Source of the DNA: Polytrichum commune | Taxonomy: Eukaryota > Streptophyta > Polytrichopsida > Polytrichales > Polytrichaceae | Direction of reading: 5' to 3' | DNA: 64,000 nucleotides | Assembly: GCA_950295325.1 (NCBI GenBank) | Contig: OX485808.1 | Span: 21,844,527 to 21,908,526, forward strand | In this document: positions 9,755-64,000 of the stretch, in pieces | How positions within the stretch are numbered: the stretch's first letter is position 1 | Layout: each line of letters opens with the position of its first letter | The notes under the pieces: generated by a model | What the model was told of the DNA's origin: nothing | Database searches by the model: none | Seen by the model: only the letters and a program-made list of their open reading frames with translations | Position numbers and translations under genes: made by a program

Positions 9755-9765
9755 TCAATATAAAC

Positions 9766-10048
9766 AAACAAACAAATAAATAACCAACGTTGGGCAATCC
9801 GACGTGAATTTGAGTTCATTGGCCCTAACCTGCTCAAGAATCCTCTTGGTGCAGGGTGGGGTTTACTGCCTACCTTGCGGTGAGTGGGCTCTTACCTACC
9901 TACCTACCTACCTACCTTCTTCTTCTTCTTCTTCTTTTTTCTGTCAAGGAAAGAGAAGATTTCACAGCGGGAATCGAAGCACTAACCACTCCATTCGAAA
10001 ATGGGTACCTCTCCACTACCACCTGATAATTTAGGGTCGTCTCGGACC
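9766..10048 (-). mobile_element. tRNA-derived SINE, copy 1 of 3
   Basis: Flanked by an exact 11-bp duplication TCAATATAAAC (9755-9765 and 10049-10059). On the minus strand it starts GGTCCGAGACGACCCTAAA, has a box A-like GGTAGTGGAGAGGTACCC and a box B-like GCTTCGATTCCCGC, and ends in a tail of GTTATTTATTTGTTTGTTTG type. A CTAC/TTC microsatellite has expanded inside it (about 9893-9935). It relies on a LINE for movement. Confidence 0.9.
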
Positions 10049-10229
10049 TCAATATAAACTTAAGTTGAGCGCATCAACAAATTCAAATGAGGAGCATGAG
10101 CAATGACATTATGGATTTTGAAATGCAGATGAATGTCTTTTGGATCCTCAAAGTGTTTCTTGTAGATTTCCTTTCAGATTTTCACGTTTCATGCTTGCAT
10201 ATTTAGGCATGCATTGGGCACCATTTAGG

Positions 10230-11062
10230 CACGGGTAGATCACTTAGTGCATTTTAAAAACGACGTGCGGCATAATATAGAGAGGATTAAAATCATTTGA
10301 AATAAAAATTATAAAGGAATTCCAAATAATGAAGGGGCCATTAAATGTAGACAATCCCATTATAAGTAAGTTAGATGGACATAAAACGTGGGCCATTATT
10401 TTTTGTAAAATTAATATAGGGGCTGAAGATAAGGATCCTAGAAGGTAAGTTTAGTATGGTATGTAAATGGGTCAACATTTTGTAAACCGCATGTTGTGTT
10501 TGTGAACACACCAACACTTTTCCTTTGTTTCCACCCTTACCCTATTTGTGGTGTACTTGGGGTTATTTTGTACGCGTTGTAACATTGTGGACTCCACCCT
10601 AAATTGTAAATTCTAAACCCACTTTACTATGCTTTGTATTTTTGGTCACTTGCATTGCAATGACCGCTATGGTATTTGTGCTGGCATCTCCTATGTGTTT
10701 TCATCATAATAGTGTTTGCAATGATATTACTTTGCTATGGTCTCTTATGTGTTTTCTTCATAACTCTGTTTGCAATGGTATTATTGTTTGCACCCTTCTT
10801 TGTTTCCATGCTTTCCCTCAACACTCGTCAATTGCATTAGGAAGTAGATTAGCTTTCATTACTTAAAAGGAATATAGAGTACAAAAAATTGCAGTGACTT
10901 GAACAATATAAGTAATGGAAGGGTGCAAACAAATGGGCCATTTTTTAAATTTAAGTAATTATAGGGAGGCTTTAATTCAACCCTTGAAGGTAAATAGCCC
11001 CAAAACAAAAAACCCCCAGCCGCACGTGGTGCACAAAAATGCCTTAGAGTGATCTACCCATG
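10230..11062. mobile_element. 833-bp hAT-like non-autonomous element
   Basis: Flanked by an exact 8-bp duplication CATTTAGG (10222-10229 and 11063-11070). Termini CACGGGTAGATCACTTAG and, at the other end, AGTGATCTACCCATG match the 410-bp element in the gypsy protease, including the inner CGTGCGGC block. The interior is unrelated to the shorter element and includes a tandem pair of about 55 bp (10691-10795: TATGTGTTTTC...TGTTTGCAATG). No transposase is readable. Confidence 0.87.
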
Positions 11063-11070
11063 CATTTAGG

Positions 11071-11896
11071 ACTAAGGTAAAAGGGCCCTATGACGGACAC
11101 TTTGAGCACAAGATTCCTATACATTACACAAATAATGCTCAAAGATTTTTGGGGGATTAGCATTATATTATGAGCACGGTGACATTGAGATCACATGACT
11201 CATAGCATATCTCATTTATTTACAGACAATCAAATTCATAGAAATTATTTGAGCTTTATGACATTAATTATAGTGAATAATGCAGGCCACACTATTGAGC
11301 TTATTTCCACATTAAAAACATTGGCAATATTATTGTGGGTGCACATAATCTACCAACCCATGGTGTTTAACATCAACTCAAGGCTCATGTTCAAGGTTAC
11401 AGATTTTGTAATGGATACAAAAAAAAGAAGGTGCTTCCAACTTTCTAGGGAAGGCGGTGGATATATCACGGGGACATGACATGCTAAATTCACTAGGGTT
11501 GCACATTATTTTCATGTGTGATGGTGTATATTGTGGGCCACACTATAGGGCTACCCATGGTAAGTCACACTATACATTTGCCCATAGGCTTTACAATGAT
11601 CATTGTAGTTTGTTCATGGGGTGCAAGTTGGGATGTGGTTTCATGGTTGGGACCACATGTAGTTCGGTGCGATGTTGCAATTGCATGCCTTTACAAATAG
11701 TGTTGTGGGTCCTAGTTTTGCATAAAGTGATTTCCCTCACCACACTCACTTGTACTTAATGTCGTCACTCTACATCTTTCAATCTTGTAGTTGTGATAGT
11801 GTTGAGTCCACATATGAATGCAACTGCTCAAAATCTTTGATGTTGACTATATATATTGCTACAATAAAGATATTGCAAGTACAAATATTGGGCGAG
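11071..11896. other. Unassigned intergenic DNA
   Basis: Contains several short GGCCACACTAT repeats (about 11285 and 11535) but no gene or element I can delimit. Confidence 0.5.
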
Positions 11897-12056
11897 CATA
11901 ACATTATTAAGCAGTGTCTGTTCGTTATGTGGGCCCTAAGAATATAACCATGGGATGCTAGGAGCTCAATTTTAAGCTAAGACCCCTTGCATGAACATCC
12001 CATGATTATACTCTCAGGACCCACAAAATGAACACATACTACTTAATAATGTTATG
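11897..12056. mobile_element. 160-bp inverted-repeat element, copy 1
   Basis: Ends are perfect inverted repeats of 15 bp (CATAACATTATTAAG), extending imperfectly to about 60 bp on each side through GTGGGCCCTAAGAATATAA and CATGGGATG, so almost the whole element folds into one hairpin. A second copy is at about 43360-43513. The flanks do not give a certain target duplication, so no superfamily is assigned. Confidence 0.75.
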
Positions 12057-12442
12057 ACCACATATTGTGTTGTCAATAATATAACAAATTAAATGAAATT
12101 AGTTGATTCACACATTCACTATGCACTAGCCCACATGACATAATAGATTTTCATCCCACCACAAATTGGGTCTGCAACAACTAACATAAATATTATAAAA
12201 CCGCATCATGAACTCCATACCAACATGCCGCAAATTTAAATTGTAGAGAATGTGGTAGCTAATAATAGAGTCTCTTTTCACACATCACGAATCACGACAA
12301 GACTCAAATAACCCTATGGGGTTTGCTTACCACGTAAGTAATGGTAGCTATCTATACAAGAGATGGAATCAATAGGGGAATTGGGCACATCTACCTTAGC
12401 ATTTGAAGAGCCATGTACCTATACCTTTTACTATGTCATACC

Positions 12443-12818
12443 AAGGTAGATGTGTCTAACTCAGTTGCATATTTGGATCATACACCTATACTTGAGTTGT
12501 ATGTGATCAGATGTGACTCCATGAGTGGATACCAGAAAGACATGTGTTTTAAAGAGTTTGGATTACATGCCCAAAACATGATACCCATCGTAAACTCAAT
12601 GGTCAACAAAATTGAGTCACATGTGTGACCATTTAATGAGCGCAAGAATCTTCACTTTGATAACAAAGTAGATATTCATATAAGCTCCTAAATTTTTGAG
12701 GAAAGCAGCTATGGCCTCAATATGGGAGTTGCTACCTATCTCGTTACTAATCATGTATTTCATATATTCCTTGGAGAAGTGTGCTAGTTGGAAAAAGTAA
12801 CCATTTTAGACCCATTAA
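12443..12818 (-). mobile_element. AGGTAG-family MITE, copy R1
   Basis: Minus-strand copy of a family about 375-400 bp long. Shared words on its own strand: ATGGGTCT..AATGGTTAC, CACTTCTCCAAGGA, ATATGAATATC, CAAAGTGAAGATTCT, GCTCATTAAATGGTCACA, CACATGTCTTTCTGGTAT, and a terminal CACATCTACCTTGG. No coding capacity. Confidence 0.75.
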
Positions 12819-13522
12819 CCTCACAACTTGTGACGAGTTCGCAATTGCAATTCCAAGGAGAGAAGAAAACACCTGCACAAGGAATCCATGATAGGAAATC
12901 TAGATGACAAAGTGCAGTTTCAATCTTTGACAGCTTGCGAAGGTGAGTATGGAGGAATTGAAAACTTAAGAGATACAATGTCCGGGGAGATTTTTGGGCA
13001 TAATCAGTTGAGATCCTTGTGTTTCCAAGTCCTACCAGTTACATGTTTTGGTTTTTCTTTATCAATGTGAGATATATTCTCTACATTCCTCTAAAATGAT
13101 GGGTAATTTTCCTGAAGTCTTGAACTTCAACACGTTATCTCTCCAACTCAACCAGTTCATCTGTACCTAGCGGGCCGGTTCTCCCCATTCATTGAATAGG
13201 TATGTATCAAATATTGTTTCATGAGGAATGAGCATAAGGTGAAGTGTAACCAAAAGAAGTTGAGTAGGCGTGCACTGCATGTGTTAGCAAGAGACCTGTT
13301 CTCAGATCCCGATTTCCCAACACTTGTTTGACCACAATACACATATTCAACCTCCCAGAAATTCAGTGGCGTGCTGTCTGTGATTCATGAACAGCATGAA
13401 GCCTCATTATCCACACCTTTTTGACATGGCCGTGTGAATGGAATATTGCAAGCTGGTGCTGAGCTGCAAAAAAGTGGAGTGCAATTGAATGGTACTTGAG
13501 TAATCACCTCGCCAGAGACCTA

Positions 13523-13920
13523 AGATAGATGGGTCTTGAATGGTTACTGTTTCCAACTACACTAGTTCACTTCTCCAAGGATATGAAATACGCGATTAGT
13601 ACAATGTGATTTAGCAGATCCAAATCGAGGCTGTGGCCACTTTCCTCAAGATTTTTGAAGATTATATGAATATCTTATTCATTATCAAAGTGAAGATTCT
13701 CATGCTCATTGAATGGTCATATAGACCCCCTCCCCTCCCCTCCCCTCCCCAAATTATGTTGACTATTGAATCTAGAATAGTTATCATATTTTGATCATGC
13801 AATCCAATCTCTTTTAAAACATGTCTTTTTGGTATTTGTTTTTGGAGCCACCCCAAACCACATACCACTCAAATAAAGGTGACCAATTAAGATAAGTAAC
13901 CAAATTAGGCATGTCTACCT
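13523..13920 (+). mobile_element. AGGTAG-family MITE, copy R2, full length
   Basis: 398 bp flanked by TA (13521-13522 and 13921-13922). Left end AGATAGATGGGTCTTGAATG and right end ...GGCATGTCTACCT form imperfect inverted repeats of about 25 bp. A (CCCCT)n tract (13726-13750) has expanded inside it at the place where other copies read CATATAGG..CTCCCAA. Confidence 0.8.
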
Positions 13921-14039
13921 TAAGGTATGTAACCCTAATGTGGTTACTTCCAGCTCTACAGAAAATGTTGGCAGTTTGCATTGGATTGAAGATTATCATT
14001 TTAGGCTTCAAAAGCAGCGTCGATGTGCAAATGTTGCTA

Positions 14040-14262
14040 GTTGTCCAAGAAAAGATTCTCTTGCTCATTCAATGATCACATAGGCCTTCCTAATTGTGTT
14101 CATTCTTAACCTAAAATGGTGTTTAGAATAGGAGCACTTTGTCCAATCTACTGTAACACGTGTCTTTTTGGTCTCTATTCTTAATTACAACCTTGCCATA
14201 TACCATTCAAATATAGGTGTCTGCTTAAGAAGAATGACCACATAAGGCCCACATACCTCAAT
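14040..14262 (+). mobile_element. AGGTAG-family MITE, copy R3, truncated
   Basis: Starts inside the family at AAAAGATTCTCTTGCTCATT and runs to the right end ACCACATAAGGCCCACATACCTC. It lies about 120 bp beyond copy R2 in the same direction. Confidence 0.65.
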
Positions 14263-14649
14263 GCGCACCTCGATAAACTTTGCCATCTTCCTTGCAGCAC
14301 ATTCGGAACGTACCACAAAGAGCGCGAGGTATCCCTGCGACCTGAATCCACCCATTTTTTGAGTTTCAAATCAAATTCAAGTTTGCAGAGGGGGTTCTGC
14401 TTTAGCAGATACAATTTTAATCTGCACACTGTACCATGCTGAAAATAAAGTGGCAGTAAGTTAATCTGCTGCAATTCTAACTGCATCACCCCGGTCTAAA
14501 TGTGTGTGTTGGTCACGGTATCAAAAAAATTGCACTAATAACTCAACACCCAGCCATTAGTACTTGCACATGTTTGCACTTGCAGTAGTGTACATTGCAA
14601 AAACGGACAGTCACTATAATAACAGCAGCTAATCCCAAAAGCCTGTCGA

Positions 14650-15563: not shown

Positions 15564-16805
15564 TTATGCACTCAACATGTCGAGCCTGGGCTCGAACGAA
15601 ACCACATGGTCAAAAAATCGCTCCAGCCGACGGGGCAACCAGTGCCAAGCATCTCCAGCCAAGTCATAAACAAGGCCACGGAAATCGTTATTCCCAACAA
15701 AGCACACCAGGTTGCCAATTGCCTGACACTTGAAGTAGGATGACACCCAAAACTCCCTCCGAAGCTCCTCGATGATGTTTTGTGGCACCACAGCGACTTT
15801 GATCCACTCCACGGATCTCTTAGACTGCTTCAGCTCCCACAAGTGTATGGCATAGGGTTGGTTGTGGCCCGGAAACGTCCTCTCCGCAAGGAACAATCTC
15901 CCAGGCTTAACCTCAAACAGCGAAGGGCTGGCGAAAGAAAGGCCAGCAGTGATAGGTAGTTTACATTTCTCCTTCCATATACCCTCTTTGAGGTCATACG
16001 AAACGAGGCATAACCTAAACGGCCCATTCTTATGTGCCGAAATCACATAGAAACATCCGTTACAGTACACTAAAGGATCGGAGTAGCATCCATACCATTC
16101 AATCAGAGAAGTTTCCATCCTCTTCCACATCCCTACATCCGAATCATAAACCTCCGTGGTCTGTGAGGAATCATGTGTCTGCCCTACCACAATAATCTTG
16201 TAACCCTTGGTGATGGTGTCCGCCACCAGACCTACACACATGCTCTTCTTTATTCCCATCCCCGGAAGCTCCTTTGCTAAATTTGTCAAGGGGTTCCATA
16301 TCACCAGAGGCTGTGTATCATCCACCGGTGCCACGCAAATCAACCCTTGTGATGATGCAAGCGAGATGCTGCTGTGCTTTGAGAAGAATGGCCTGGAAAC
16401 CGCAAGGCTATGCCATTGTTTCACATTCGAGTCATAGGCAGCCATGGTTATCCATGGCGCTGTATCCTGCTTGTGGAACAGGAGTAGCCAATGCACCGGC
16501 GAGAACAGGTTCGACCATACATTCAGAAACGACTTCGAGAGTACGAGAGAGTAGAATCGCTTGCACACCACACGCATCCGGAAGATGTGCGCTATAGGGA
16601 GTCCAGCAATTATGGTGTCTTGAAGCTCCTCTGGTAAAACGGACCATATCCTGTCGTCCATCTCCTCATCATCGTAGAAAATCTTCGCGAGCTCCTTCGT
16701 CAGAACACCCACGTGCTTCGAGGGGCTAAGATTTTGCATTGCGATCCGGTGACCCTCCCCCAAACTTGTTCCACTCCACCCTTCCTTCCTTCCCCTCCCC
16801 TCCAC
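15564..16805 (-). CDS. F-box/kelch-like protein, single exon, 413 aa
   Basis: This is the one long uninterrupted reading frame in the window. An F-box lies at about residues 54-97: it contains LPEELQDTIIAGLP, then FRMRVVCKRFYSLVLSKSFL, the usual hydrophobic helices with the VCKRF core. Such domains bind SKP1 and bring a substrate to an SCF ubiquitin ligase. The rest resembles a kelch/F-box-associated propeller, with blade-like phrases IWNPLTNLAKELP (169-181), EVYDSDVGMWKRM (218-230) and VSYDLKEGIWKE (268-279). About 400 aa is typical for plant F-box/kelch proteins. I see no signal peptide or membrane segment. Two starts are possible: the first Met (16805), or Met23 (16739), which skips a Gly/Arg/Glu-rich leader that may be 5' UTR. 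I favour neither strongly. The 5' side is C/T-rich on the plus strand, and a tandem duplication lies beyond the stop. The substrate cannot be inferred. Confidence 0.9.
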   Translation of the reverse strand: MEGRGRKEGWSGTSLGEGHRIAMQNLSPSKHVGVLTKELAKIFYDDEEMDDRIWSVLPEELQDTIIAGLPIAHIFRMRVVCKRFYSLVLSKSFLNVWSNLFSPVHWLLLFHKQDTAPWITMAAYDSNVKQWHSLAVSRPFFSKHSSISLASSQGLICVAPVDDTQPLVIWNPLTNLAKELPGMGIKKSMCVGLVADTITKGYKIIVVGQTHDSSQTTEVYDSDVGMWKRMETSLIEWYGCYSDPLVYCNGCFYVISAHKNGPFRLCLVSYDLKEGIWKEKCKLPITAGLSFASPSLFEVKPGRLFLAERTFPGHNQPYAIHLWELKQSKRSVEWIKVAVVPQNIIEELRREFWVSSYFKCQAIGNLVCFVGNNDFRGLVYDLAGDAWHWLPRRLERFFDHVVSFEPRLDMLSA

Positions 16806-16828
16806 TCCCCTCCCCTCCCCTCCCCCTT
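16791..16828. repeat. (CCCCT)n tract at the 5' end of the F-box gene
   Basis: Imperfect CCCCT pentamers cover the first codons and upstream side of the F-box gene. On the coding (minus) strand this reads as repeated GGGGA runs, at least five runs of four G, a pattern able to form a G-quadruplex. It may lie in the 5' UTR or in the first codons, depending on which start is used. A regulatory role is inference only. Confidence 0.7.
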
Positions 16829-18884
16829 CCCTACCTTAACCTAACCTTACCTACTCTTCCTCCCTCTCGCTCATCGAATCATAATAAGTATGAAACACAC
16901 ACATGAGATCCCTAACCCCGAATTCTGTGCACAGAATTCAAAATAGATAAGACTTGTATGCAGCGAGATTCTTCTCCTACCTCGCCATCACCGGATCCTT
17001 CACTCCACCGAATTCCGAGGTTGTGGCGAAACCTACGTAGGCTAGCCACCCATTGTCTCTATTTCCTTTCTCCTGCGACCGTGCCAATCCTTGACCCCGA
17101 AATCCCGAAGCACCATTCTCCTCAAAATCGGCCTCAAATGACTGTTCCTAAGAGAGATAATTTAGGAATCAATCTGGAGGAGGTGTTTTTGAGCATCCAA
17201 CCGTACAGTAACAATATGAGTACCTTTCTATGAGTTGTATAAAAACAAATATCAACTGTTCACATGGCAATATGAATGAGAATATAATACATATGTGAAG
17301 CTATGATGGACGGGGTAGATGATTGAAAACAAACTTTAACCCTGCTGACATCATCAAATGGATGACGGGGATGAGACCCAATCAAGATGAAGCTTTTTAC
17401 ATTAGGTTTCCAACTCAACTGGGAACTTTTGAAGCTTGAACGATTATTTATGTTTGCACCAAACGTGATTTTTTGAGAGCCCTTGCAATGTGTAGCACTT
17501 CGTTTTACATCTAATCTTACATATTATCTCTTAAGTAACTTCAAAAACTTCAACTACCAATCCCAACAGTAGATATCCGAAACATAAAAGAAACTAAATC
17601 CTTAAATAAGTTCATGGCTTTCCAAGTACATATGAGTGTTGCTTTCCTATCTCACACCTTTCCTAGTGTGTCACAAGGTTTAGTCCAAATCCAATGGGAT
17701 TTGGGACGCTAGATGACTTTAAAAAAAATTCCACAAGGTTGCAGTTTAGTCCAAATCCAACGAAATTTGAAGTGTTGGATGCAAAATAAAATTCATCAAT
17801 GCTGACAAAGTCTCACCTCCATCTAAAAAGTCAAAGGTCTCAATCGAAACAAAATCATCAAAAATTGGTCGTTTTGGCTCTCTCAGGGGTTTAGGGGTTA
17901 ACCAAAATCCTTTCGAAATGCTTATTCCAATCTTCCTGGCATCTGCAAGGCTTCAACTACTGGAACTTTGACATACATACAATACATACAAAGCTAGATG
18001 TATTAATGTCGGTGTATAAACCAAACCCTGATGTTACTTTCATTTTATTTATTTATACAAAGCTAGTTGTGTGTGTGTGTATGTCATGTGTCTCCGAGGT
18101 TGTGAGTGAATCTCCGGCTTTGGTGAAGGCTTGGAGAATGGATTGTGGAGTTGCTACAATGATGCTAAATAGACCCATTGTTTGAGGAATAATGGAAAGA
18201 AGAGTGTGGATGTGGGCAGGATGAGATGGCATACATTGGTGGTATGGTAGATGGAGTCTTAAATGGTTACTCACTTCAACTAGAATATGAACTTGCAATT
18301 AAGGTTGAGTCATTTATAACCAATAAAATAAGAGAGTTTGCATCTATTTAGGAAAGGTGATAGCGGAATTTTTATTTTCTTGTGAAGAGAAACATGATTT
18401 TAAGGAGAATGCAATTTATTTTTTACATAAATTTTGAAATTGTTACAAAATTTGAGCGGAAAAGTTTAGGGTAACATACTGTAACAACCAATATATAGGT
18501 TAACCTATAACCGCTCATCTAAATGCTAATTCTTGGCTACGATAGTTGTCAGAACTCTTATGAGGGTAGTCCATCACAAGCCGCCACCACATAGAGTAGA
18601 GGCACCCATAACTGATCACTTAAGAGACTTTGCGCCAGATTTGGAGAAGTATAAGGTGGTGCAAGACTTTCCCATGTAGGAAGACAGAAATTACGAGGGA
18701 TGCACATTTTTTGGTAATTTTGTCCTTCAATTGAGATTACTGTGAATTCTGGATGTCAAAATTTGGCCCGAATATCTCATGGTGGTAGTAGTTTTCACAG
18801 CGTAAAGAAATTTAATATCACTTTCATTAATTTCCCTCATGTAGTATGGCCAACCCTCACTAAATGGGGGAATCCATGTACTTA
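16829..18884. other. Intergenic DNA beyond the F-box 5' end
   Basis: Apart from the short ORF at 16958, it holds a tandem pair near 17670-17765 (TTTAGTCCAAATCCAA twice) and a perfect 16-bp palindrome TATAGGTTAACCTATA at 18494-18509. No gene recognised. Confidence 0.5.
16958..17233 (+). other. Short ORF head-to-head with the F-box gene, status uncertain
   Basis: A 91-codon frame starts about 150 bp from the F-box 5' end in the opposite direction. It is rich in Ser, Pro and Arg at its N-terminus and richer in G+C than its surroundings. I recognise no domain. It could be the first exon of a divergent transcript or chance sequence in the shared promoter region. Confidence 0.15.
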
Positions 18885-19165
18885 GATGGTTAACAAATTA
18901 AAAAATCATCAAGTTTGTAAGCCACTTTCCTCACATTTTTAGAGCTCATATGAATATTTTATTCATTATCAAAGTGAAGACTATTGTGCTCATTGAATGA
19001 TCACATAAGTCCTCCCACTTGTTCCATGTTAAGTATAGATCTCTCTTTTAAACTCATGTCTTTTGGTATCAGTTCTTGGAGACACACTAAACCACATACC
19101 ACTCAAATCAAATATAGGTTGTCCTAATAAGAAAAATAACCAAATAAGGATACTCTATATTTAGC
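18885..19165 (+). mobile_element. AGGTAG-family MITE, copy R4, left end missing
   Basis: Carries CCACTTTCCTCA, CATTATCAAAGTGAAGA, GCTCATTGAATGATCACATA, CATGTCTTTTGGTATC and ACCACATACCACTCAAAT in family order. Confidence 0.7.
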
Positions 19166-20372
19166 ATGACAAGGCATGGTTTAGGAGGATGAGATGGCAT
19201 GGAGATTGATGATGTTATTATACGGAATACGAAAATGGATACGTACATGTATATGCTACGGGTACCGTAGATACTTGGAAGGTGGGCCAGTTACCCCCGC
19301 CTTACTTTTTGGGCAGCCCGCTGAAAAAGTATGGCAATGAGAACTTCGCACAGGGAAAAACAGATATTCATCCATGCTCTGTGGGAGCCGTGAGGTAAGT
19401 GGGGCACGCGGAGCTCCCATGACGTTCCCTTGCGTTCCCTTTGCTACCGCGCGGCTCCCCTTCGCAGGTTTTGATATCTGTATGAAATTCAGGTTTGTGG
19501 AGTTGTGCACTTTTTAGCTTTCCATTTTCCGTGAGATCTTTGTTGACACGAACAGGTTAGAGCTGAAGGATTTCAAATTTCGAGATTTACCTAGGGGTTT
19601 TGAATTCTACAAACATTATTTGGATTCACCTAGGGTTTTTGAATTCTAAGAGGCATTTGAGCAGCATTTATGTTGTGTGGAATTCACTTTTCCCGCTGGA
19701 TTGTGCATGCAATGTTAGAATGCGAAATGTGAAACGCTTGTAAAATTTTGTGAAATGTTGGTGAAATTATGAAATCTTGGAGCAGGGATTTGGCTCTTGT
19801 GATTGAATGCAATCAGATATGGAGGAGCCTGTGACTATCGACAACTCAACCGGTTTGTGTTCTTGAACTTTGTAGGAAAGTTGTAATGACACTTGTGTCT
19901 GGTTTTTATTAATTTCTGGAGAGAAAACAGTCCGTATTGAAGCAATTCAAATGCAACGTGAGATGAACATGGGCTATTAATGAATTTACTGAACGAGAAT
20001 TGTAATCTAGTTAGCTTGGTGACAATTTCACTGTAAGGATGTGTAGCCAAGTCACAATGTTGCTGGACAAACTGTATTGGACAGTTTGTTCTTCTCAATG
20101 CCCTAATAAGTTTTATCTTTCTCGACACCTTAACAAGGCATTTTATAAACATCATTGTAAAGAATCTTGTTAGGGTATCTTGTTAGGACAGTTTGTTCTT
20201 CTCAATCGTCCTTGTAAGCATTCGAGCACAGTTATTATTCTTGAATCACCTTGACTTTTGTTAGGTCTTCCTGGTAACTGAAAGAGGATTTCAACACATC
20301 TTGGCATTTAGTTTTTGGACACTGTGTGAATTGACTATTAGTAGACTATGAATTTCCGACGTGTTGGTTACA
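19166..20372. other. Intergenic DNA with small duplications
   Basis: A G+C-rich patch at 19256-19460, a tandem pair of about 45 bp at 19580-19650 (CACCTAGGG..TTTTGAATTCTA) and a direct repeat GACAGTTTGTTCTTCTCAAT at about 20080 and 20187. No domain recognised. Confidence 0.5.
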
Positions 20373-22245: not shown

Positions 22246-23424
22246 AACATCTCTATTTTAATATTTTTCTTTGTTTTAATGCACATCAACCTATACGCCT
22301 TCGTACCTTCACAATATTCAAGAAATACACATTTGATTCATTTTGCATCGAGCTTGTTCCTCTTCTCGTCCAAAATCATTACATATAAAATGTTTTCGAA
22401 ACACACGCATGTGTGTAATGCAAGGGCTCCTCTAGCTCCGCGGTTTTTTCAGATGTAATGGAGCGTAAGGGTCTCATCGGACATCGGTTTAGTGTATAAA
22501 TTACATTTGCCGCCGTTTCCATCTAAAGTGATATTTCGAGTTTTTGAGCTTTGAGCATACACTTTGTCCTTGCAAGAATGATTTAATTGGCATATTCCGT
22601 TGGTTCAAGTCTTGAGACACGTGTGCTCTTAATGTCGTGTTTTATTTTTTTAAATTTCAAATATTTTTGAAATGGAGTCCCCTCAACTCATCCACCAAAA
22701 CACCTTGATTTCATGCTCCAATTGTGTTTCTACAAATACTTAAAACTCTTTAAATCTCTCAAATTACTCTCCTTTGGATTTCATCATGTAAATACTCAAT
22801 GTCCTTTAAAATTTATCAATGAAAGTAATAAAATCTTTTTACCCCTCTCACATATATGTTCTTCATAGGACCACAAACACCCGAATGCATAATCTTCAAG
22901 GGTTTTGTTCTTGCATTTCCTCATCATTGTCTAACTTTGCCGCATATTGTTTATCCTCTGTGCATACTTCACCAACCAATGTAAAGGTGGGACGAAAGAT
23001 TTTATCTAGGTTCATATCCCTCACATGTTTTGGAGTGCATAAACACTCCTCACATTGAAATGTTCAAGTCGGTGGTGCCAAAGCTCCACTAGACCAACTA
23101 CTGCACGTGAACGTACGCAATTTGGCTACAAATTCCCTTCGCATTGAGCTTTTGCAACCACGCCACTATTCGCACTTCCTACAATGCATTTCTTTACTTG
23201 AAATTGCATTTTCAATCCATTTGACAAAAAATTGCTCACCAAGAGCAAATTGGCTTGCAACTTGGACACGTGAAGCACATCCGTGATGTGAATTCTATTT
23301 GTTTTTCTTCTCATGTCAACTCTAGCAACAATGGATCTCATTTCAATAGCTCCGGCCACATCATTATTATTTAAATTCACGTTGCATAGAGAAATTACCT
23401 TGTATATATCGAATGTCATCATAC
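22246..23424 (-). pseudogene. copia protease end and integrase remnant, copy 1
   Basis: RIHITDVLHVSKLQANLLLV and SNFLSNGLKMQF match the copia block just before GAG-pre-integrase. The text down to about 22250 parallels copy 2, where integrase motifs are readable, but here it is broken by stops. Confidence 0.7.
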
Positions 23425-23425
23425 A

Positions 23426-23802
23426 GATAGATAGATAGAAACTCCGGTCCCTTTTTAGCAAGGGGCCGGCGTGAATGAAGTGTCCGTTCGTAATGTCAAA
23501 TGACCCGATGCCCACTGGACAAGGGGAAATTGGGACAATACTACTCTTCCCTTTCGAGGATGGGCACTATAATATCACACTATACTAGTTCCTAAGCTAC
23601 TAGTCACTAGTGCCTTGAGGATACCGGACATGGAATCCCCCCAAAGGGCTTTGAGGTACCCATACAACAAGGTCTAAGGACCCCCCACCATAGTTGGGTG
23701 GACTAAGGTGGTGAGCACCACGCCGGCATGGGGAATAGAACCCACAACCTCCTCATTGGGGGCCATGAGCCCTAACCACCAAGCCAAGGCCCGTGGTGCC
23801 AA
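23426..23802 (-). mobile_element. tRNA-derived SINE of a second family, inside copia copy 1
   Basis: Flanked by an exact 11-bp duplication GTCATCATACA (23415-23425 and 23803-23813). On the minus strand there is a box A-like TGGCTTGGTGGTTAGGGC, a box B-like GGGTTCTATTCCCC about 30 bp later, a body of about 300 bp and a TCTATCTATCTATCT tail. Copia copy 2 shows the uninterrupted sequence at the same place (about 32983-33030). Confidence 0.9.
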
Positions 23803-23813
23803 GTCATCATACA

Positions 23814-24650
23814 CAAAGTTATAGGCTTTGTGGTTCCCGAATCCATGATCCTCGAATGTGTTCCGTGTTGCATTACAAATGTGAATTCATCTTCATCCTT
23901 CGTATTTTTGGCATACTCTCTTTCCTTCTTTTTTTCTTTGTAGCAAAATCGTATAATGTAGCCCGGTTTGCCACAATAAAAGCACGCCCTTACGCCTTGC
24001 TGCGAAAGTAGATCGTCCACTTTATTTTGACGCAACACCATCGATGCGTCTTCACATTGGGGCTTCTTCTTCTTGTGCTTCGATATCTTGTGCACTAAAC
24101 ATGCCATCACGTACTTCATTATCAACTCCTTTGTCGACATCGATTTCAAAGCAGTCATCAAGTATTCTTAGGGGGCTGGAAAATTCTCTAACAAAGTCAT
24201 GATGATGTCTTATTCTCTCATGGGTACCTCCAAATGTGCGAGTTGATCCACAAATGCTTTGACCTTGTTGATGTGGTTCAACAAGTCGTCGGCTTTTTAC
24301 ATCTTGCACGTGAAGACTTGTGGCGAACAAAGAAGATTTTGGATAAATTTTTCATCCCATGGATATTGCAAAGGGTATTTTATGCCTCCGCAGGTCTTTT
24401 GTAACTTTGATATGTGGAAGTTTGGTTGTCTGCCAAGTTGAGGCCGGTGATGAACATGGCATTTTTTATGCACCTTTGGTATTCCTTCAACACTTTAGAA
24501 TCCGCATTTGAAGGTGGAGCCTTTTCGAATTCATCTACAAGGTCCATGGAAGCCAATGCCATCTCCATGTTGAACTTCCAAAGGCTAAATATCTCTCCGT
24601 GGAACTTGTCCATGACTCTAGCCCCTTCGCTCTCAAGATATGTCATCTTA
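23814..24650 (-). pseudogene. copia gag remnant, copy 1
   Basis: Begins with FHGEIFSLWKFNMEMALASM, the F-G-x-F-x-WKF-ME pattern of copia gag N-termini, then MKYVMACLVHKISKHKK. A zinc knuckle CFYCGKPGYIIRFC follows: it keeps three Cys of CX2CX4HX4C but has Tyr for His. RIMDSGTTKPITL carries the protease Asp-Ser-Gly. Frameshifts separate these parts. Confidence 0.82.
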
Positions 24651-31274: not shown

Positions 31275-31849
31275 CTTTCATTTTGCGAGTAGTCAAAGAA
31301 TTGCAGTATCATTGCCTTTGATTGTTGCCTTCCTTTAATAATAAATGCTTCATACAACTTCAAAGAATTACCAACATATACCACATTCATGCTTTCTTCA
31401 CCATGTTTGGACAATATGTGGTTTTTTTACCATTCTCCAAGCGGTTGGCAATCCCTTGTGAATTATCTTTGCTCTTCTAAAGGTTGCCCCTCTTCATGAA
31501 CATCTAAGTTTGGTTGTGTTTCACCATTACAAGTGTGAAATGAAGGTGTTGGCGAACACCCTTTGCTTGCAGAACCTTCTCTTGCTTCTTAAATTGCAAC
31601 TTGGTTATCTCTCACTTGTTCCTCATGTTCTTCAATATCTCCACAAAGATCAATCAAAGGTGATTTTGAACATTCATCCACTCCAACCACTATAGGGACT
31701 TCATTTTTCTCACTTGGATGTATTTCCAAATCATTCCCAATACTCATCATATCCTCCACAAATGCAACATCTCTACTTTTGATAATCTTGTTGGTTTTCA
31801 AGCACATGAGTTTATATGCTTTGGAATCTTCACAATAACCAAAGAACAA
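31275..31849 (-). pseudogene. copia integrase-RT linker joined to the polypurine tract, copy 2
   Basis: FGYCEDSKAYKLMCLKTNKI and KSRDVAFVED are the usual end of integrase. Then EWxKNHILSKHGEESMNVVY and LYEAF lead, without RT, to QFFDYS, a purine-rich CGCAAAATGAAAG and the LTR start. Confidence 0.8.
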
Positions 31850-32008
31850 ACACTTGGTGTTTTTGCATTAAGCTTACTCCTCTTTTCATCGGCCACAATC
31901 ACATATGCAATGCTTCCAAATACATGATGTGTGGAATACAAGGCTTCCTCCCGCTCCACATTTCTTTGGGTGTAATTATGGATGTTAATTTTTTTTATTT
32001 GACATTGA

Positions 32009-32650
32009 TTACGTGTGTAAACCACACACCACCGCTTCTGTCCAAAATAATTTGTTGAGCTTTTGAGTATGAAACATGATCCTTGCGACCTCCATGATGG
32101 AACGATTTGTACACTTTGCCACTCCATTTTGTTGAGGCCTATACAGGTGGGATGTTTGCTTTTCAATATCATATTCTTTAAAAAAATGAAGGGAATTTCT
32201 CCGAAATGAACTCACCACTATTATCTGACAAAACTCCTTGATTTAGTCATTTGATTGCGTCTTTACAAGGATCTTGAACTCCTTGAATTTCTCCAAGTAC
32301 TCTCCTTTAGACTTCAACATGTTCACCCAAACATTCCTCGAAAATTGTGAATGAAGGTGATAAAGTACCTTGCACCCTCCATGAATGATGTCCTCATGAG
32401 GCCACAAACGTTCAAATGCACAATCTCCAAAGGCTTAGTTGCTTGCCTCCCTTCATCATTGGAAAATGTTGTCTTATGTTGGTTATTCTCAATGCATGCT
32501 TTACAAACCAACAAAGATGTGGAATAAAGAATTTGCTAAGGTTCATGCCATTCACCATGCTTTGGAGTGCATGAACACTCTTTACATTTAAATGCCCAAG
32601 TCAACTATGCCAAAACTCAATTACATCATCTTTCTTCCACGATTGTGGCA
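32009..32650 (-). pseudogene. copia integrase remnant, copy 2
   Basis: The zinc-binding end C-x2-C (CKACIENNQHKTTF) leads into PLEIVHLNVCGLMRTSF and GARYFITFIHNFRGMFG, the first catalytic block, where the usual VHSDVCGPM reads VHLNVCGLM so the Asp is lost. Downstream HLYRPQQNGVAKCTNRSIME with ARIMFHTQKL and FWTEAV is the conserved third block, with the usual Glu replaced near AKC. Confidence 0.82.
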
Positions 32651-32819
32651 AATTGACCACATCCGCTTCATGCTTCTTAATGAAGTTCATTTGGTACAAA
32701 TTGCCTTCATGTAGTGATATTACAATAATTTAATCATCGGTACCTCTCACAATGCATTTATTAGGTTGAATTGAATATTCAACCCATTCGACAAAAACTT
32801 GCTTCATAAGTGCAAATTT

Positions 32820-33058
32820 GCTTACAACTTAAGCACATAGAAGACATATTTGATGCAAATCCCTTTGATTTTTTGTATCACTAGCACCTCAATAATAATG
32901 GATCTTATTATGATAGCTTCTACGATGCTATCATCATCCAAATGGACATTGAATGAAGAAAGTACCTCGTACATGCCAAATGTCATCTTATGAAAAGTTG
33001 TGTACTTTGTTGCTTTTGAATTCATGATCCACTTACATGAGTATGTTTCGTATTGCAT
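32820..33058 (-). pseudogene. copia protease-region remnant, copy 2
   Basis: CKWIMNSKATKYTTFHKMTF and SSFNVHLDDDSIVEAIIIRS parallel copy 1. The expected DSGA is replaced by NSKA, so the catalytic Asp is lost. Confidence 0.7.
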
Positions 33059-33059
33059 T

Positions 33060-33670
33060 CTAAATGCGTAATCATCATCTTCTTTGTGTTATCTGTCTCT
33101 ATTATTTGCCTTGTAGCAAAAACGCGCAATGTGACATGGTAAGCCACAATACTAGCACATCTTGACGTTTTTGTGCCAAGATGGTTTGCCCGCTTTGCCT
33201 TTACACAACACTATTGCGACATCATCACCTAAGGATTCATTTTGTTTCTCTTAGACATCTTGTGCATCAAACTTGTTGTCACGTACGTAATCAACTCCTT
33301 GATCGGCATCGTCTCCAAAGCGGTGATCAAGTGTTCATATGAGGGTAGTAAGCTCTCTAGCAAAGTCATGACAACATCTTTGTTTTTCATGGGTACCTCC
33401 AAACAAGTGAGCTGATCTGCAAGTGCCTTGACCTTGTTAACGTGGTCCAACAAGTCATCACCTTCTTGTATCTTATCTGTGAAGAAGTTACGACGAACAA
33501 AAAGAATGTTCAACAAGTTCTTCGTCTCATGGATGTTGCAAAAAGTCTTTTACACCTCCGTTGGTCCTTTGCAACTCTTAATGTACGTAAGTTGATTGTC
33601 CTCCAAGTTGAGCGCAATAATAGACATTGCCTTGTTGACACACCTTTCATACTCTTTCTTCATTTCTCCA
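33060..33670 (-). pseudogene. copia gag remnant, copy 2
   Basis: KEYERCVNKAMSIIALNLED, then GDDLLDHVNKVKALADQLTC and LLPSYEHLITALETMPIKEL, typical copia gag. The knuckle at about 33125-33170 reads C-stop-YCGLPCHIARFC: all CCHC residues are present but a stop falls after the first Cys. Confidence 0.82.
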
Positions 33671-34231: not shown

Positions 34232-35610
34232 GTGTGCTCGCGCTGCTGAATTTGCTCTCTGACTAATTCCAAGCGGCCGCAAATTCACCATCATCACTCA
34301 CGCACGGTACGACTCTCACATTCTTGCAATTCGTTTTTCCTTGAATTCGTAGTGTCGACTGGCTGTCCGACGCCATTGTCGAGAGTGGTAGTGGTGACGG
34401 ATCTGCAACCGGCAGTTTTTGTCCTGTTGTGGTGGGAAGGATTTTTCTTGATTTTGGTCGACGGGGCCGGGCTGTATGTTAGTGAGGGGAAAAATTATAT
34501 GGATTGAAATAATTGACGTCTGGAGTTTCATGGTGCTGCTGAGAGAGTTTGAGGACTTTTTTTTGAGCGCACACCAATTCCAAGCGGCCACAATTCGTCA
34601 CTCACGGTACTGTCGCAATTCTTGCGACGATTCTTTCTATTACTGAATTTGTAGTATCGGTCTGCGGCACACTGGAATGTAGGGTGAATGGCTGTCTGTC
34701 CACCGCCATTTTAGAGAAAAGTGATTGTAATGGTGATGGATCCGTAGTCGGGAGTTTATTTTGTCCTGTTAATTTTGGTTCTTTGTACGAGTAAGTTTGC
34801 CCGGGGGTGCATTTCTCCTCCTGTGTGCTGCTGCTCACTTTTCTCTCTCACCAATTCCTATTGGCCGCGAATTGATCTTCACCACGGTGTAAATAATAAC
34901 TCTCATACTCTTGCGATTATTCTTTCTTTCCGTGTCTGAATTTTTAGTAGAAGTGTGCGGCACTGGAGTGTAGAGCGGAATCATGGCTGTCCGTCGCCAT
35001 TTTAGACACGAGTAATTATAATGCTGACCGATCTGTGGCCGAGAGTTCTGTCCTGTTTTGGTGGAGATGATTTTGTTGATTTTGGTCCGGATTTCGGTTC
35101 TTTGTGTGAGTTTGCTCGGGGATGCATTTTCCATTGCGATTTGTGAAGGCGATGACGTGACAAGGGTTGGTTGTGGAGGTTGGGAGGTTATGGTGATGTT
35201 TTAGAGGTCAAACTGGCCGAGGACGCCAGGCTGTATGTTGTGAGGGGAAGAATGAAGAAAACAATTGATCCGTCGAGATGTGGTGAGGCGCGCCTGAGTT
35301 TTATGCTGCTGCTCAGTTTTCTCTCTTTTTTGCGTACACACCAATTTGCAAGTGGCCACAATTAGTCACTCACGATAATCTCGCATTTCTTGCGATTATT
35401 TTTTCCGTGTCTGAATTTGTAGTATCGTTCTGCGGCACTGGAGTTTAGAGCGTATGGCTGTCCATCGCCATCTTAGAGAAGAGTAATTATAATGGTGACA
35501 GATCCGTAGTCGAGAGTTTCGTCTTGTTGTGGTCATGAGAGGGAGAGGATTTTCTTGGTTTCGGTCCGGATTTTGGTTCTTGTGTGTTTCGGTGTGTTTC
35601 GCTTGAGATT
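34232..35610 (+). repeat. Four imperfect tandem units upstream of the PHT1 pseudogene
   Basis: Four related units lie head to tail. Anchor AATTC/AATTT, followed by a GCGGCC- or GTGGCC-like motif and the words TCACTCACG..., falls at 34265, 34576, 34853 and 35343, giving spacings of about 311, 277 and 490 bp. Each unit then carries a CTTGCGATTATTC-like segment, TGAATTTGTAGTATCG, a GCGGCACTGGAGT-like word, GGCTGTCCGTCGCCAT, a TAATTATAATGGTGA-like word and GAGAGTTT. Units one and three share a further segment (GGCTGTATGTTGTGAGGGG...) that unit two lacks; units two and three share CGGGGRTGCATTT. The last unit runs to within about 300 bp of the pseudogene start, so the array may be duplicated promoter/5' UTR sequence. 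It is richer in G+C than its surroundings. Confidence 0.8.
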
Positions 35611-35891
35611 TGCTGTATGTGAAAAGAAACCGTCGTCACTCCATCCCTTGTCAGTACGTTGTTTTTAAAATAAATAAAAACTTGATCCGTGACCGGTAGC
35701 AACGTTTTACTCGGCGATCGAGCAGTTATCAGTCTAGCCGTATCGTGTGTGATTTGTTCCGTTTCGAAGTTCTCATGAAAAGACTGCAAGACTTGCTTTC
35801 GCGACAGTGTTGCCAACGGTTTCGTTAACGAATCTCTCTGAATCCTGCATGCTACTACAGGTGAACGTTAAGTAAAAAGCAGAGCATCAAG

Positions 35892-37557
35892 ATGCCACTC
35901 GAGGTTTCAACAGCGTTGGACAAGGCGCAGACCGAGTGGTATCATTTTTTACCACTATTGTCATCGCTGGCATGGGCTTCTTCACAGGTAAAGTGTTGTC
36001 TTTTCAAGTAGGTAATTCTATTTACGGCGTTAATGATTTCCTTATGTGGTCAGTGATGATGATGACATTGGAGACATTCACTCATCTGGACCCTAAGTTA
36101 CCAGTTGCATTTTATTCTTTACAGATGCTTACGATCCTTTCTGCATCGCTACCGTCACAAAGCTCCTGGGGCGACTCTACTACTACGACCCCACCGTGGC
36201 GAAGCCAGGAAGTTTGCCTCTTATTAATGTAAATGCTGCTGTGAATGGAGTGGCGTTGTGCGGTACGCTGGCAGGGCAATTGTTCTTCGGGTGGCTAGGC
36301 GACAAGACGGGCAGGAAGAGAGCGTACGGAATGACGCTGTTGCTTATGATAATCTGCTCAATTGCGTCTGCGCTGTCGTTTGGTAATACAGCAAAGTTGG
36401 TGATTACCACACTTTGCTTCTTGCGGCTGTCCATTGTCCGCGACCATAATGTCGGAGTACGCGAACACCGAGACCAGGGGCGCCTTCATCGCTGCCGTGT
36501 TTGCTATGCAAGGTTTTGGAATCCTCTTCGGAGGAGCTTTAGCCATTATTGTCGCCGCCGGCTTCACCATACTTACTCCCGCGGGCCGTACAATTATTTT
36601 CCAACAAACCAAGCGATGGATGAATCATGCACACCGCAAGCTGATTTTGTGTGGCGAATCATTCTGGGTGTTGGAGCTTTGCCTGCGGCGGCCACGTTCT
36701 ATTACAGAATGAAAATGCCAGAAACCGCTCGCTTTACAGCCAATGCTGCTAATGCGAAGAAAGCCGCCCTTGACATGACGAGGGTGCTGGAGGTGAATTT
36801 CGATGCTGTGGATGCCACTGCCGAGCATAGGGTACAGTATGGTCTGATTTCCAAAAGATTCGTTCGTCAACATGGCAGACAATTACTGGGTACCACATCG
36901 TGTTGGTTCCTCCTGGACATAGCATTTCTACTCTTCGAATCTGTTCCGGAAGGATATCATCTCCGCAGTGGGATGGCTTTCTGGTGCAACGAAAATGTCC
37001 GCCATTCAAGAAGTTTTTAAGATTGCCAGAGCACAAGCACTCATTTTACAATTCAACTCCAAGGACTCTTTTTTCATGACTGTTTTCATGTTCGCTTTGG
37101 CCATTCCTTATGACCACTGGTAGACGGTCAACCACACAGGCTTCGTTGCATTATATGCACTCACATTCTTTTTTTCAAACTTTGGCCCAAGTGCAACAAC
37201 GTTTATTGTTCCCGCTGAGTTATTTCCAGCGAGGTTAAGGTCCACATGCCACAGTAGCTCTGCCGCTGCTGGCAACGCAGGTGCCATCGTCGGAGCTTTT
37301 GAATTCTTGTACGCTGCTCAAGATAAAGATCCAGCCAAGCGGGACTGACCTAACTACCCCGCAGGAACTGGCATGAAGTACGCTTTGATTGTGTTAGGTA
37401 TCATAAATGCCTGTGGGTTTTTCTGCACTTCTTGGACCCAGAGACCGACCAAAGGTCATTGGAAGACTTGCCTGGTGAAAAGAGGAGGCAGAGGCTGACA
37501 AGAGAGCTGCAGATGCAAGGCAGAGATTGTCTGAAGTTTCGGGTGTTTGACAGCTGA
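35892..37557 (+). pseudogene. PHT1-family high-affinity phosphate transporter pseudogene
   Basis: PHT1 proteins are plasma-membrane H+/phosphate symporters of the major facilitator superfamily with 12 membrane segments and about 520-550 residues. Recognisable blocks run in order over two exons: EVSTALDKAQTEWYHF, TTIVIAGMGFFT, an intron, [119 protein letters not shown], and a C-terminal RSLEDLPGEK. It is clearly dead: a frameshift in the T run at 35945-35950; loss of the segment before SATIMSE, including most of the GGDYPLSATIxSE signature, near 36430; frameshifts near 36565-36610 and 36925; loss of about 25 residues after ARAQALI near 37050; in-frame stops at 37121 (TAG) and 37346 (TGA); and a frameshift near 37425. 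The retained intron shows a DNA-level copy, not a retrocopy. Confidence 0.93.
35988..36124 (+). other. Intron of the PHT1 pseudogene
   Basis: 137 bp with GT donor (GGTAAAG context) and AG acceptor (TTTACAG). It is phase 1, splitting the Asp codon of the conserved FFT-DAYD junction. Removing it joins the two conserved protein blocks exactly, which supports the call. Confidence 0.88.
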
Positions 37558-40400: not shown

Positions 40401-40412
40401 ATAAGTGAGGGA

Positions 40413-40681
40413 ATAATGATAATAATAATAATAACCAACACCAGGTAATCCGATGTGAATTTGAACCCGTTGGCTCTACCCTGCTCAAGAATCCTCTTGG
40501 TGTCAGGTGAATTTTACTGCCTACCTTGTGGTGGGTGGACTCTTGGCCTCTTACCTATCTGATTAGTTTTTTCTCCGTCAAGTAGAGAGAAGATTTCACA
40601 GCAAGAATCAAAGAGCCAACCACTTCATTCAAAAATGGGTACCTTTCCACTATCACCCATAGTTTAGGATCATCTCGGACC
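40413..40681 (-). mobile_element. tRNA-derived SINE, copy 2 of 3
   Basis: Exact 12-bp duplication ATAAGTGAGGGA (40401-40412 and 40682-40693). On the minus strand it begins GGTCCGAGATGATCCTAAAC, has box A-like GATAGTGGAAAGGTACCC and a degraded box B-like CTTTGATTCTTGC, and ends GGTTATTATTATTATTAT. The body is collinear with copy 1. Confidence 0.92.
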
Positions 40682-40839
40682 ATAAGTGAGGGACATGTTA
40701 GGTATGCAAAGAACCATGACCCAACACATCATCATGGTCCATTATCACCAAAACTCTTGCCCTCTTGTTTGTCTTCTCACTTGTTTGACTCATCATTTTG
40801 CAACCGTGTCGTGTCTCCAAGTTCCAACCTCAACAAATT

Positions 40840-55695: not shown

Positions 55696-55699
55696 GAGT

Positions 55700-59320: not shown

Positions 59321-59321
59321 T

Positions 59322-59418
59322 TTCATGCAATCCAACCTCTTTTGAACATGTGTCTTTATGGTGTTTGTTCTTCGATCCTCACCAAACCACACACCAATCA
59401 AGTATAGGTGTTCTCAAC
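59322..59418 (+). mobile_element. AGGTAG-family MITE, copy R9, fragment
   Basis: GCAATCCAACCTCTTTTGAA, CATGTGTCTTTATGGTGTTT and ACCAAACCACACACCAATCA match the right third of the family. Confidence 0.55.
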
Positions 59419-61226: not shown

Positions 61227-61505
61227 TAAGCAAGGTGGATAGATCTTGAAATGGTTAACTTTTTTGGTCCCGACTAGCCCACTTCTCCTAGGATATGGAA
61301 ACACACAATGTAGTACAAGATGGTTAGCAAAAGTGAAGATTCTCGTGCTCATCAAATGGTTGTATAGATTTTTCCCAATTATGTTGATTGTTGAGTCTAA
61401 AATGGTTATGATATTTTGAGCACACAGTCCAATTTGTTAAACACGTATTTTTTTGGTATTTGTTCATAGAGTCTTAACAAGCCACATACCACTTAAATTG
61501 TGTCA
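61227..61505 (+). mobile_element. AGGTAG-family MITE, copy R10, right end missing
   Basis: Begins TAAGCAAGGTGGATAGATCT, then AAATGGTTAAC, CCCACTTCTCCTAGGATATG, GTGAAGATTCTCGTGCTCAT and CACATACCACTTAAATTG. Confidence 0.7.
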
Positions 61506-61602
61506 CCGCATGTCCACAGAGATGCTTGGTTGTTGTTGTTGTTGTATCATGGCAACATACAAAGTTTGAAATTGCTAGGGATTGATGGTATTTGCAGGCA
61601 TA

Positions 61603-61974
61603 AGGAAGTTGGACCGTCTTGAGTGGTTATGTTTTCCAGCTAGCTTACTTCTCCTACTATTTGAAACACATGACTAAGCTTAGTACAAGATGGTTAGCAG
61701 CTCCAAATCGAGGTAGAGCAACTTCCCTTATAATTTATGGAGCTCATTTGAGTCTTATTTAAGTGTCAATGTGCTCATTAAATGGTCATATAGGTTCTCC
61801 CAATCATGTTGAACACTAAACCTAGATTGATTGATATGTTTTGAGTGCACATGTCAATCTCTTCTTTCAAGCACATATCTTTTTGATGTCCATTCTTGGA
61901 CGCACACCTAACCACACACCAATTAAATATAGATGCTCAATTAAGATAAGTAAGCGAATGAGGCACATCTATCC
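61603..61974 (+). mobile_element. AGGTAG-family MITE, copy R11
   Basis: 372 bp flanked by TA (61601-61602 and 61975-61976). Left end AGGAAGTTGGACCGTCTTGA, right end GAGGCACATCTATCC. It lies about 100 bp beyond R10 in the same direction. Confidence 0.75.
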
Positions 61975-61976
61975 TA

Positions 61977-63439
61977 CAACTCTCCAAATCTTTTGTACTT
62001 TGATGTTTTTTTCAAGCAAAGGGAGTGAGATAATTTTGTTATTGTCACAACTCATTGGTGTGCATTATGGTGTTGTTTCATATTTCAATTGGTCTTGTGT
62101 AATCTTGAAACAAACATCACAAGAATTAGAGGAAACTTATTCTTGGAGGGTTTTTTTCTCAAAATTGAATGCCTTTAACGGGAATGAACAAGTTGGCAAG
62201 TGCTTATCTTGCCCAAGAGCAAATCCCTAGCAATGGACAATATTAGAGGTCAATAGAGATTGATGGTATTTGCTAGAGATACAACTCTTTGAGGTTGTTC
62301 TCTTTCTACATGTAATCCAAAACAAGCATCACGAGAACTAGAGGAAAGTAAAAAAAAAAATTGTCTTCTTTCAAATGTGGAGGCCTTGAACAGGCATGGA
62401 CAAGTTAATCTGCACTTATCTCCCTCAAGGACAAACCAAATTTGAGATTGCTAGAGATGAATATTGTTTCCGAACATACAACTCTCTAAATCTTATGTCA
62501 TCAAGTCATGCTTTAGGGCAAAGAAAGAGAAATGATTTAGATGTTGCCACCAGTATGAATGATAGTGTTCCACATCTTCAAGTTGGTCTATTTCTATATG
62601 TAATCTTGAAACAAGCATCCTAAGACTTTCAGCAAAGTAAAAGAATATTGTCTTCTCTCAAGGATGAAGATCATGAATGGGCATGAACAAGTTGGCACTC
62701 ACTTGTCTCCTTAAAGGGAAACCCCCTAGGTTTCATCATGGTTGGTGATAAAAAATAAATAAAAATAAAGCAATTTCCCTCACTAGGATGGGTGGACCAC
62801 AGTATTTATAAGCCTATAACCCTAAAATACTTATGTCATATTGTGTCTTTCTAGAAGAAAAATAGAGAGCATTTTAGCATTGCCACAATCGGGATTATGC
62901 TAAAGTTACTTTAATGTTTCTATACATTTATTATTCATATTATCAAAATTATCTATATGGTTGTCAAGTGATGGGAACTACCTCTTGAACTAAAAGTGCA
63001 TGGGGGATAAGATATAGAACTACACTAAATATGATATTTAGTGTCATATGGTTTTTAGTGTCACCATGGTAACTTTTTGCATGACACTTCTTATCAATAA
63101 GTGAACAAACATGGTCATGGATGATAGATGAGGTCATCCATTGGCCACAACCCGACCTTCTCTTGTCAACAACTTGTGATGAAATATTGTCATGGATGAT
63201 TGAAATTTGGAAGAGAATATCACTTGGTAAGTGACAGTAATTGCAACACTGTAAATCTATAATCCCCCAAAAAAATTACAAGGAATGACAAAAAAAATGT
63301 TGGGTTAACATTTATTGTAGGTGACACTACACCATGGTCTACAATTAGTATTTTACTACAATTGTTATTTTATGTTTTGCATGTTTGTGCATTGTTGCTA
63401 GAGAGCTTGTTGCTTGAGATATTGATTCTAGATTAATAT
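61977..63439. other. Intergenic DNA
   Basis: A near-palindrome ACACTAAATATGATATTTAG with its continuation lies at 63022-63044, followed by TTTAGTGTCACC at 63053-63064. No gene. Confidence 0.5.
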
Positions 63440-63455
63440 AGTTACTACATCTTTG

Positions 63456-63623
63456 TTTGTTTTATTTTTATTTTTTTTGGAACACAAGAAGCGTTTGATC
63501 ACTTGGCTAGTTTCCTGTCAAGTAGAGAGATGATTTCACGGCGAGGAATCGAACCACCAACCACTCCGTTCAGTTTGGGTACCTTTCCACTATCATCCGG
63601 TAGTTTAGGGTCATCTCGGACCC
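63456..63623 (-). mobile_element. tRNA-derived SINE, copy 3 of 3, short form
   Basis: Exact 16-bp duplication AGTTACTACATCTTTG (63440-63455 and 63624-63639). On the minus strand it starts with GGTCCGAGATGACCCTAAAC, has box A-like GATAGTGGAAAGGTACCC and a perfect box B GGTTCGATTCC, and shares the next block with copies 1 and 2. It then ends in a different 3' part (GCTTCTTGTGTTCC) and an AAAATAAAAATAAAA tail, lacking about 100 bp of the others' 3' body. Confidence 0.93.
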
Positions 63624-64000
63624 AGTTACTACATCTTTGAAGTGCTTTGCTTCTATATGTAATTATGAGACATGCATCGTGACAATTAAAGAACTCTCAA
63701 AGGAGTTTGCGTTCTTTCAAAGACAAATGCCTTGAACATGCATGAACAATCATGGCCACACCTATCTCTCCACTATAATTACATGGACCATAATGTGTAC
63801 CATACATCAAGTTCTCAAGAAGGCCATCTATCTTGAAGGCACACGTTTAAATGTTAACGAAGTCAACAAGAACCACTAAATGACCAAAAAAATTGAACAC
63901 CCTCCCCCCCCCCCAAATTTAAGTGTCATCAATTTTTTACGGGCAACAAGAATCAACAACATGCATGATTAAGGTAGGGGTGGCAATTTCCGTGCGGGTC

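Follow-up and report, generated by a model that had tools for sequence, protein, structure and literature searches.

How does one promoter-bearing head come to stand before two different 3' ends within a single stretch of genome? The question is raised by 64,000 nucleotides (nt) of Polytrichum commune DNA (contig OX485808.1 of assembly GCA_950295325.1, positions 21,844,527 to 21,908,526; hereafter the window, numbered from its first letter), which carries three related insertions, c1, c2 and c3. We conclude that these copies very probably belong to a group of plant short interspersed nuclear elements (SINEs) that was inserted by target-primed reverse transcription and sealed with a target duplication. 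The three have a head of ~112 nt in common, which appears to have been combined with two 3' ends that are unrelated to each other: c1 and c2 continue into a body of ~110 nt and T-rich repeats, c3 into a short end with an A tail.

All copies lie on the minus strand, at 9766-10048 (c1, 283 bp), 40413-40681 (c2, 269 bp) and 63456-63623 (c3, 168 bp), and direct reading reproduced the coordinates and strand given for them in an earlier annotation of this DNA, here called the original prediction. From 5' to 3', c1 consists of the head, a microsatellite-expanded linker, the body and a tail of TTTA/TTTG units; c2 of the head, linker, body and a tail of TTA units; and c3 of the common head, a differing short 3' region and an A-rich tail. 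Lengths well under 1 kb and simple-repeat tails are both features of SINEs. The 5' ends coincide to the single base at GGTCCGAG, with one additional 5' G in c3. The common 19-nt start, already remarked upon in the original prediction, has three matches in the window when up to three mismatches are allowed, and none of the three contains a mismatch; shuffled sequences (n = 100) gave 0.01 matches on average. A profile of the head found three places (expectation value E ≤1.1e-35; next match E 1, reversed-window control E 0.92) and a profile of the body two (next match E 0.53, control E 2.8). At full sensitivity neither profile revealed a further copy, leaving 3 dispersed copies in the 64 kb of the window. 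A separate repeat search likewise grouped c1 with c2 (families D5 and D11), and the open frame that overlaps c2, in a listing of frames of at least 110 amino acids, a length beyond what any of these copies could accommodate, is without a Pfam match.

Each insertion is bounded by an exact target duplication of its own, recovered by a script search around the ends. These measure 11 bp in c1 (GTTTATATTGA, 3' copy at 9755-9765, 5' copy at 10049-10059), 12 bp in c2 (TCCCTCACTTAT, 40401-40412 and 40682-40693) and 16 bp in c3 (CAAAGATGTAGTAACT, 63440-63455 and 63624-63639), as had been predicted for these positions. Random controls back them: when the search was repeated at 20,000 random places for each copy, a match of at least the observed length turned up 16 times for c1, 16 times for c2 and never for c3. 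In c1 and c3 the 3' duplication opens with 4 nt that are identical to the end of the tail and cannot be told apart from it; in c2 the overlap is 1 nt. The unambiguous lengths are therefore 7 (c1), 11 (c2) and 12 bp (c3).

The head, whose pairwise identities are 94/112, 93/114 and 91/111 gap-free positions, contains putative internal promoter motifs for RNA polymerase III (Pol III). Scored against the consensuses TRGYNNARNGG for box A and GGTTCGANTCC for box B, c1 carries a box A at 10008-10018 (TAGTGGAGAGG, 0 mismatches) and a box B at 9970-9980 (GCTTCGATTCC, 1 mismatch), both on the minus strand like those of the other copies. In c3 both boxes are complete, with TAGTGGAAAGG at 63582-63592 and GGTTCGATTCC at 63545-63555 (0 mismatches each), so that the box B earlier called nearly canonical is in fact fully so. 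In c2 box A is again TAGTGGAAAGG without mismatch (40642-40652), and the candidate box B at 40604-40614 (TCTTTGATTCT) has decayed to 4 mismatches. Judged by these motifs, the predicted promoter is strong in c1 and c3. Box pairs as good as those observed arose in 0 (c1), 28 (c2) and 0 (c3) of 1000 dinucleotide shuffles, and of the 112-mers drawn at random from the window (n = 2000), 17 had 4 mismatches or fewer and none had 1 or fewer. Box A begins at nt 30-31 of the head, with box B 26-27 nt beyond it. This distance and the 11-16 bp duplications fall within the ranges for plant SINEs in the available portion of PMC8825457, namely 25-50 nt between the boxes and 8-16 nt for duplications.

Beyond the head the copies part company. 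The linker and body of c1 (9785-9935, minus strand) and of c2 (40436-40573, minus strand) are common to these two and were not found in c3, which departs from the common sequence at the head's end and continues with 3' sequence of its own into an A-rich tail that was read directly (63456-63478, minus strand). Overall, c1 and c2 are identical at 208/265 gap-free positions of head and body, and at 117/157 when linker, body and tail are taken together; the limit of the body was judged by eye on the alignment. At the head/body junction of c1 (9893-9936) we also observed two adjacent microsatellites, (TACC)6.2 and (CTT)7, and c2 is without arrays at the aligned place. The bodies fold slightly better than shuffled sequences (z -1.30 and -0.87), and a two-sequence consensus has changes on both sides in 1/29 pairs, too few to use as structural support. 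The original description of a three-copy family holds in so far as this is a SINE family with individual duplications, but a more accurate count would be two full-length copies and a further element with the head alone in common; that c3 has just the first ~112 nt in common with the others was missing from it.

Could the two 3' ends nonetheless be one? A single family with a single partner LINE (long interspersed nuclear element), in which c3 simply carries a degenerate, deleted or truncated version of the c1/c2 3' end, is in our view unlikely. The c3 type is known from just one 168-bp copy, and a stretch of it, GCCAAGTGATCAAA, could initially be aligned with the bodies of c1 and c2 at shuffle P values of 0.12 and 0.09. 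With a wider c3 stretch and other scoring, however, these values became 0.42 and 0.80 for c1 and 0.16 and 0.15 for c2, and the joint local score of the c3 3' part against the two bodies was equalled by 1383/3000 random 37-mers from the window. The type of tail, too, differs between c3 and the other copies. Somewhat less probable still is that c1 and c2 are dimers, composed of a c3-like monomer whose A-rich tail was retained as a linker and of a second module behind it. An A-rich linker does follow directly on the head in c1 (AAAAAAGAAG) and c2 (GAGAAAAAAC), and the body of c2 contains weak matches to box A (1 mismatch) and to box B (2 mismatches), but these lie ~79 nt apart, the best boxes in the body of c1 have 2 and 3 mismatches, and the body gave no Rfam match above chance level.

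A more radical alternative, in which the copies arose by segmental duplication or are fragments of a larger long terminal repeat (LTR), LINE or DNA element, is very improbable and is contradicted within the window. All three copies do lie on the same strand, an arrangement with a chance of 1 in 4. Against this, the flanks of different copies (700 nt per side, or 377 nt on the 5' side of c3, where the window ends) have only short matches in common, at E 0.17 or worse, the 5' end is base-exact apart from the additional G of c3, and every copy has a duplication of its own. The original prediction had itself named shared flanks, or a larger element with the same head, as findings that would overturn it; neither was found within the window, where head and body occur at no further place.

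If the copies are indeed SINEs, the following model can be proposed. Pol III would transcribe the element from boxes A and B in the common head, the enzyme of a partner LINE would reverse transcribe the SINE RNA at a nicked target, and sealing of the insertion would leave the target-site duplication. Pairing of the tail RNA with the target primer would explain the 4-nt identity of tail and target in c1 and c3, the shared 4-mers having frequencies of 0.0055 (c1) and 0.0096 (c3) in the window. The consensus nick of L1 LINEs is TTTT/AA, the slash marking the nick. In c3 the bottom-strand nick deduced from the duplication, TTTG/AA, agrees with this consensus at 5/6 positions (background 0.012), and the agreement is 0/6 in c1 and 1/6 in c2. 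According to the available portion of PMC3747384, L1 LINEs of flowering plants nearly all end in poly(A), RTE LINEs carry a (TTG)n or (TTGATG)n end, and the tobacco TS SINE has ~100 nt and TTG repeats in common with an RTE LINE. Because the nick of c3 matches at 5 positions and those of c1 and c2 at 0 and 1, and because LINE tails differ in this way (PMC3747384, in part), c3 fits an L1-type partner and c1 and c2 fit another. The c3 type may accordingly have used an L1-type enzyme, and the c1/c2 type a different one, such as that of an RTE-clade LINE.

Several observations weigh against this reading in one or other of its parts. Runs of T4 (c1) and T5 (c2) sit between boxes A and B; such runs could terminate Pol III early, and c1 and c2 themselves may be poor templates. 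Descent of the head from a tRNA, as implied by the tRNA-like boxes of the original prediction, is at most a possibility: the box motifs are present, but a search with the Rfam models of tRNA, 5S and 7SL at E up to 10 left all three copies without a match. Across the whole window the same covariance models gave nothing at gathering score, and ARAGORN found no tRNA. Twelve weak Rfam matches to other families (2, 4 and 6 per copy, E 2.1-9.9) fell below gathering score and were taken as chance. Moreover, the heads fold no better than shuffled sequences (z +0.31, +0.82 and +2.17; for c3, 199/200 shuffles fold equally well or better), and a box A starting at nt 30-31 is late for a tRNA gene. The head could be a much-decayed tRNA. 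As to the partners, the tail/target overlap of c2 is just 1 nt, and the T-rich tails of c1 and c2 are both built of units other than TTG. The arguments from two partners, nick sites and microhomology are post hoc, drawn from one to three insertions, and are suggestive, the assignment of partners setting one insertion against two. Finally, the TTA tail of c2 is nearer to the (ATT)n tail of Chlamydomonas elements than to the TTG repeat of RTE (PMC3747384, in the part available).

The divergence of the copies and the state of their duplications allow the order of events to be considered. The heads differ by 16-18% (Kimura two-parameter distance, K2P, 0.19-0.22), and c1 differs from c2 by 21.5% overall (K2P 0.265). 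Had the insertions been as old as these splits, the probability that all three duplications would still be exact is ~0.00015, or 0.0011 with the unambiguous parts only, an estimate that uses all three window copies, assumes an equal rate of change in flanks and elements, and is biased toward exactness by the definition of the duplications as exact matches. Heads 16-18% apart beside exact duplications indicate that the source lineages had split before the present insertions took place, and the insertions are most likely younger than that split. It is possible, and we propose it only tentatively, that in one genome a Pol III head was carried on two unrelated 3' ends by L1-type and perhaps RTE-type enzymes, with both kinds still inserting after they had diverged.

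Plant SINE families reportedly have common 5' parts and diverged 3' ends, according to a 2020 paper on Salicaceae SINEs in The Plant Journal. That SINE families may combine a common 5' part with differing 3' ends is in any case already known, for example from HaSE1 and HaSE2 of Helicoverpa armigera, which in the available portion of PMC3272025 have a similar 5' part and differing 3' ends, as c3 does relative to c1 and c2. The two cases differ in that the host is an insect and in that one 3' end there resembles an RTE LINE and the other a mariner-like element (PMC3272025, in part).

The remaining likenesses are by description only, and follow the entries available from PMC3747384. The tobacco TS SINE, whose partner is RTE-1_STu, resembles c1 and c2 in three respects (it carries both promoter boxes, its 3' part measures ~100 nt, and its tail is a T-rich simple repeat), but it ends in TTG repeats, which are found in neither c1 (TTTA/TTTG) nor c2 (TTA). 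For A-tailed plant SINEs (e.g. SB1-15 of Brassicaceae) an (A)n tail is listed, and c3 likewise combines a box A/B head with an A-rich tail (PMC3747384); unlike them, it has a head that also occurs on two elements that are not A-tailed. The (ATT)n tail of the Chlamydomonas SINEX elements, whose partners are RandI LINEs, is the TTA repeat of c2 in another register (PMC3747384), a likeness of tails to elements whose host is a green alga. Au-like SINEs, also of plants, end in T2-5 (PMC3747384), an ending that none of the tails of c1, c2 and c3 has.

The family of c1, c2 and c3 is apparently without a name. Six element strings of 14-15 nt, taken from one strand, did not occur in the main texts of papers, the supplements lying outside this search, and literature searches on SINEs turned up no paper describing the family, as judged from the listings. 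It may well already be catalogued, since the text search missed supplements and SINE databases. An exact scan of viral contigs with one 22-mer each from head and body gave 0 and 0 matches. In genome contigs a 19-nt match to a Pseudaminobacter record, in which just 19-20 nt of the head align, was dropped: we calculate that chance would yield several matches of this kind among 257 billion bases. Plant SINEs with a known partner LINE are few; in flowering plants three SINE/LINE pairs were listed as of 2013 (PMC3747384, in the part available). A head with two tails in one genome offers a natural comparison for the role of the tail in the choice of partner and target site. In all other respects, these copies are unremarkable additions to the plant SINEs on record.

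The window contains several further features. Inverted repeat arms at 554-598 and 834-878, 87% complementary and containing TACTCCCTCCGTCCC, delimit a segment (554-878) whose ends resemble those of Stowaway-type miniature inverted-repeat transposable elements. Direct repeat pairs at 1584-1736 and 7800-8036 lie 6216 and 6300 bases apart and enclose a weakly gag-like frame at 3037-3417 (Retrotrans_gag, E 0.039, below cut-off); together they are possibly a decayed LTR element. Similar stretches at 23024-24316 and 32556-33485, 9169 and 9532 bases apart, have retrotransposon Pol fragments nearby (Pol_BBD in 23126-23563 and SH3_retrovirus in 31798-32208, both slightly below cut-offs), and the region perhaps represents two decayed copia-type elements.

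At 35876-37020 there is a broken frame resembling a phosphate transporter, with phosphate transporter 1-11 as its best solved relative (E 1.5e-63, in two stretches), and directly upstream of this remnant three related repeat units (D6, D10) lie 291-475 bases apart at 34578-35533. A long open frame at 15564-16835 resembles the sequence of an F-box protein whose propeller is At3g26010-like; by the names of the families they match, this frame and the transporter remnant point to a plant as the source. A dispersed repeat around CCACATACCACTCAAAT (D1, D3), distinct from the SINE, recurs at 13809-13884, 19061-19111, 59338-59413, 61433-61508 and 61863-61938, and near it lie the further dispersed families D4, D7 and D14, some of them inverted.

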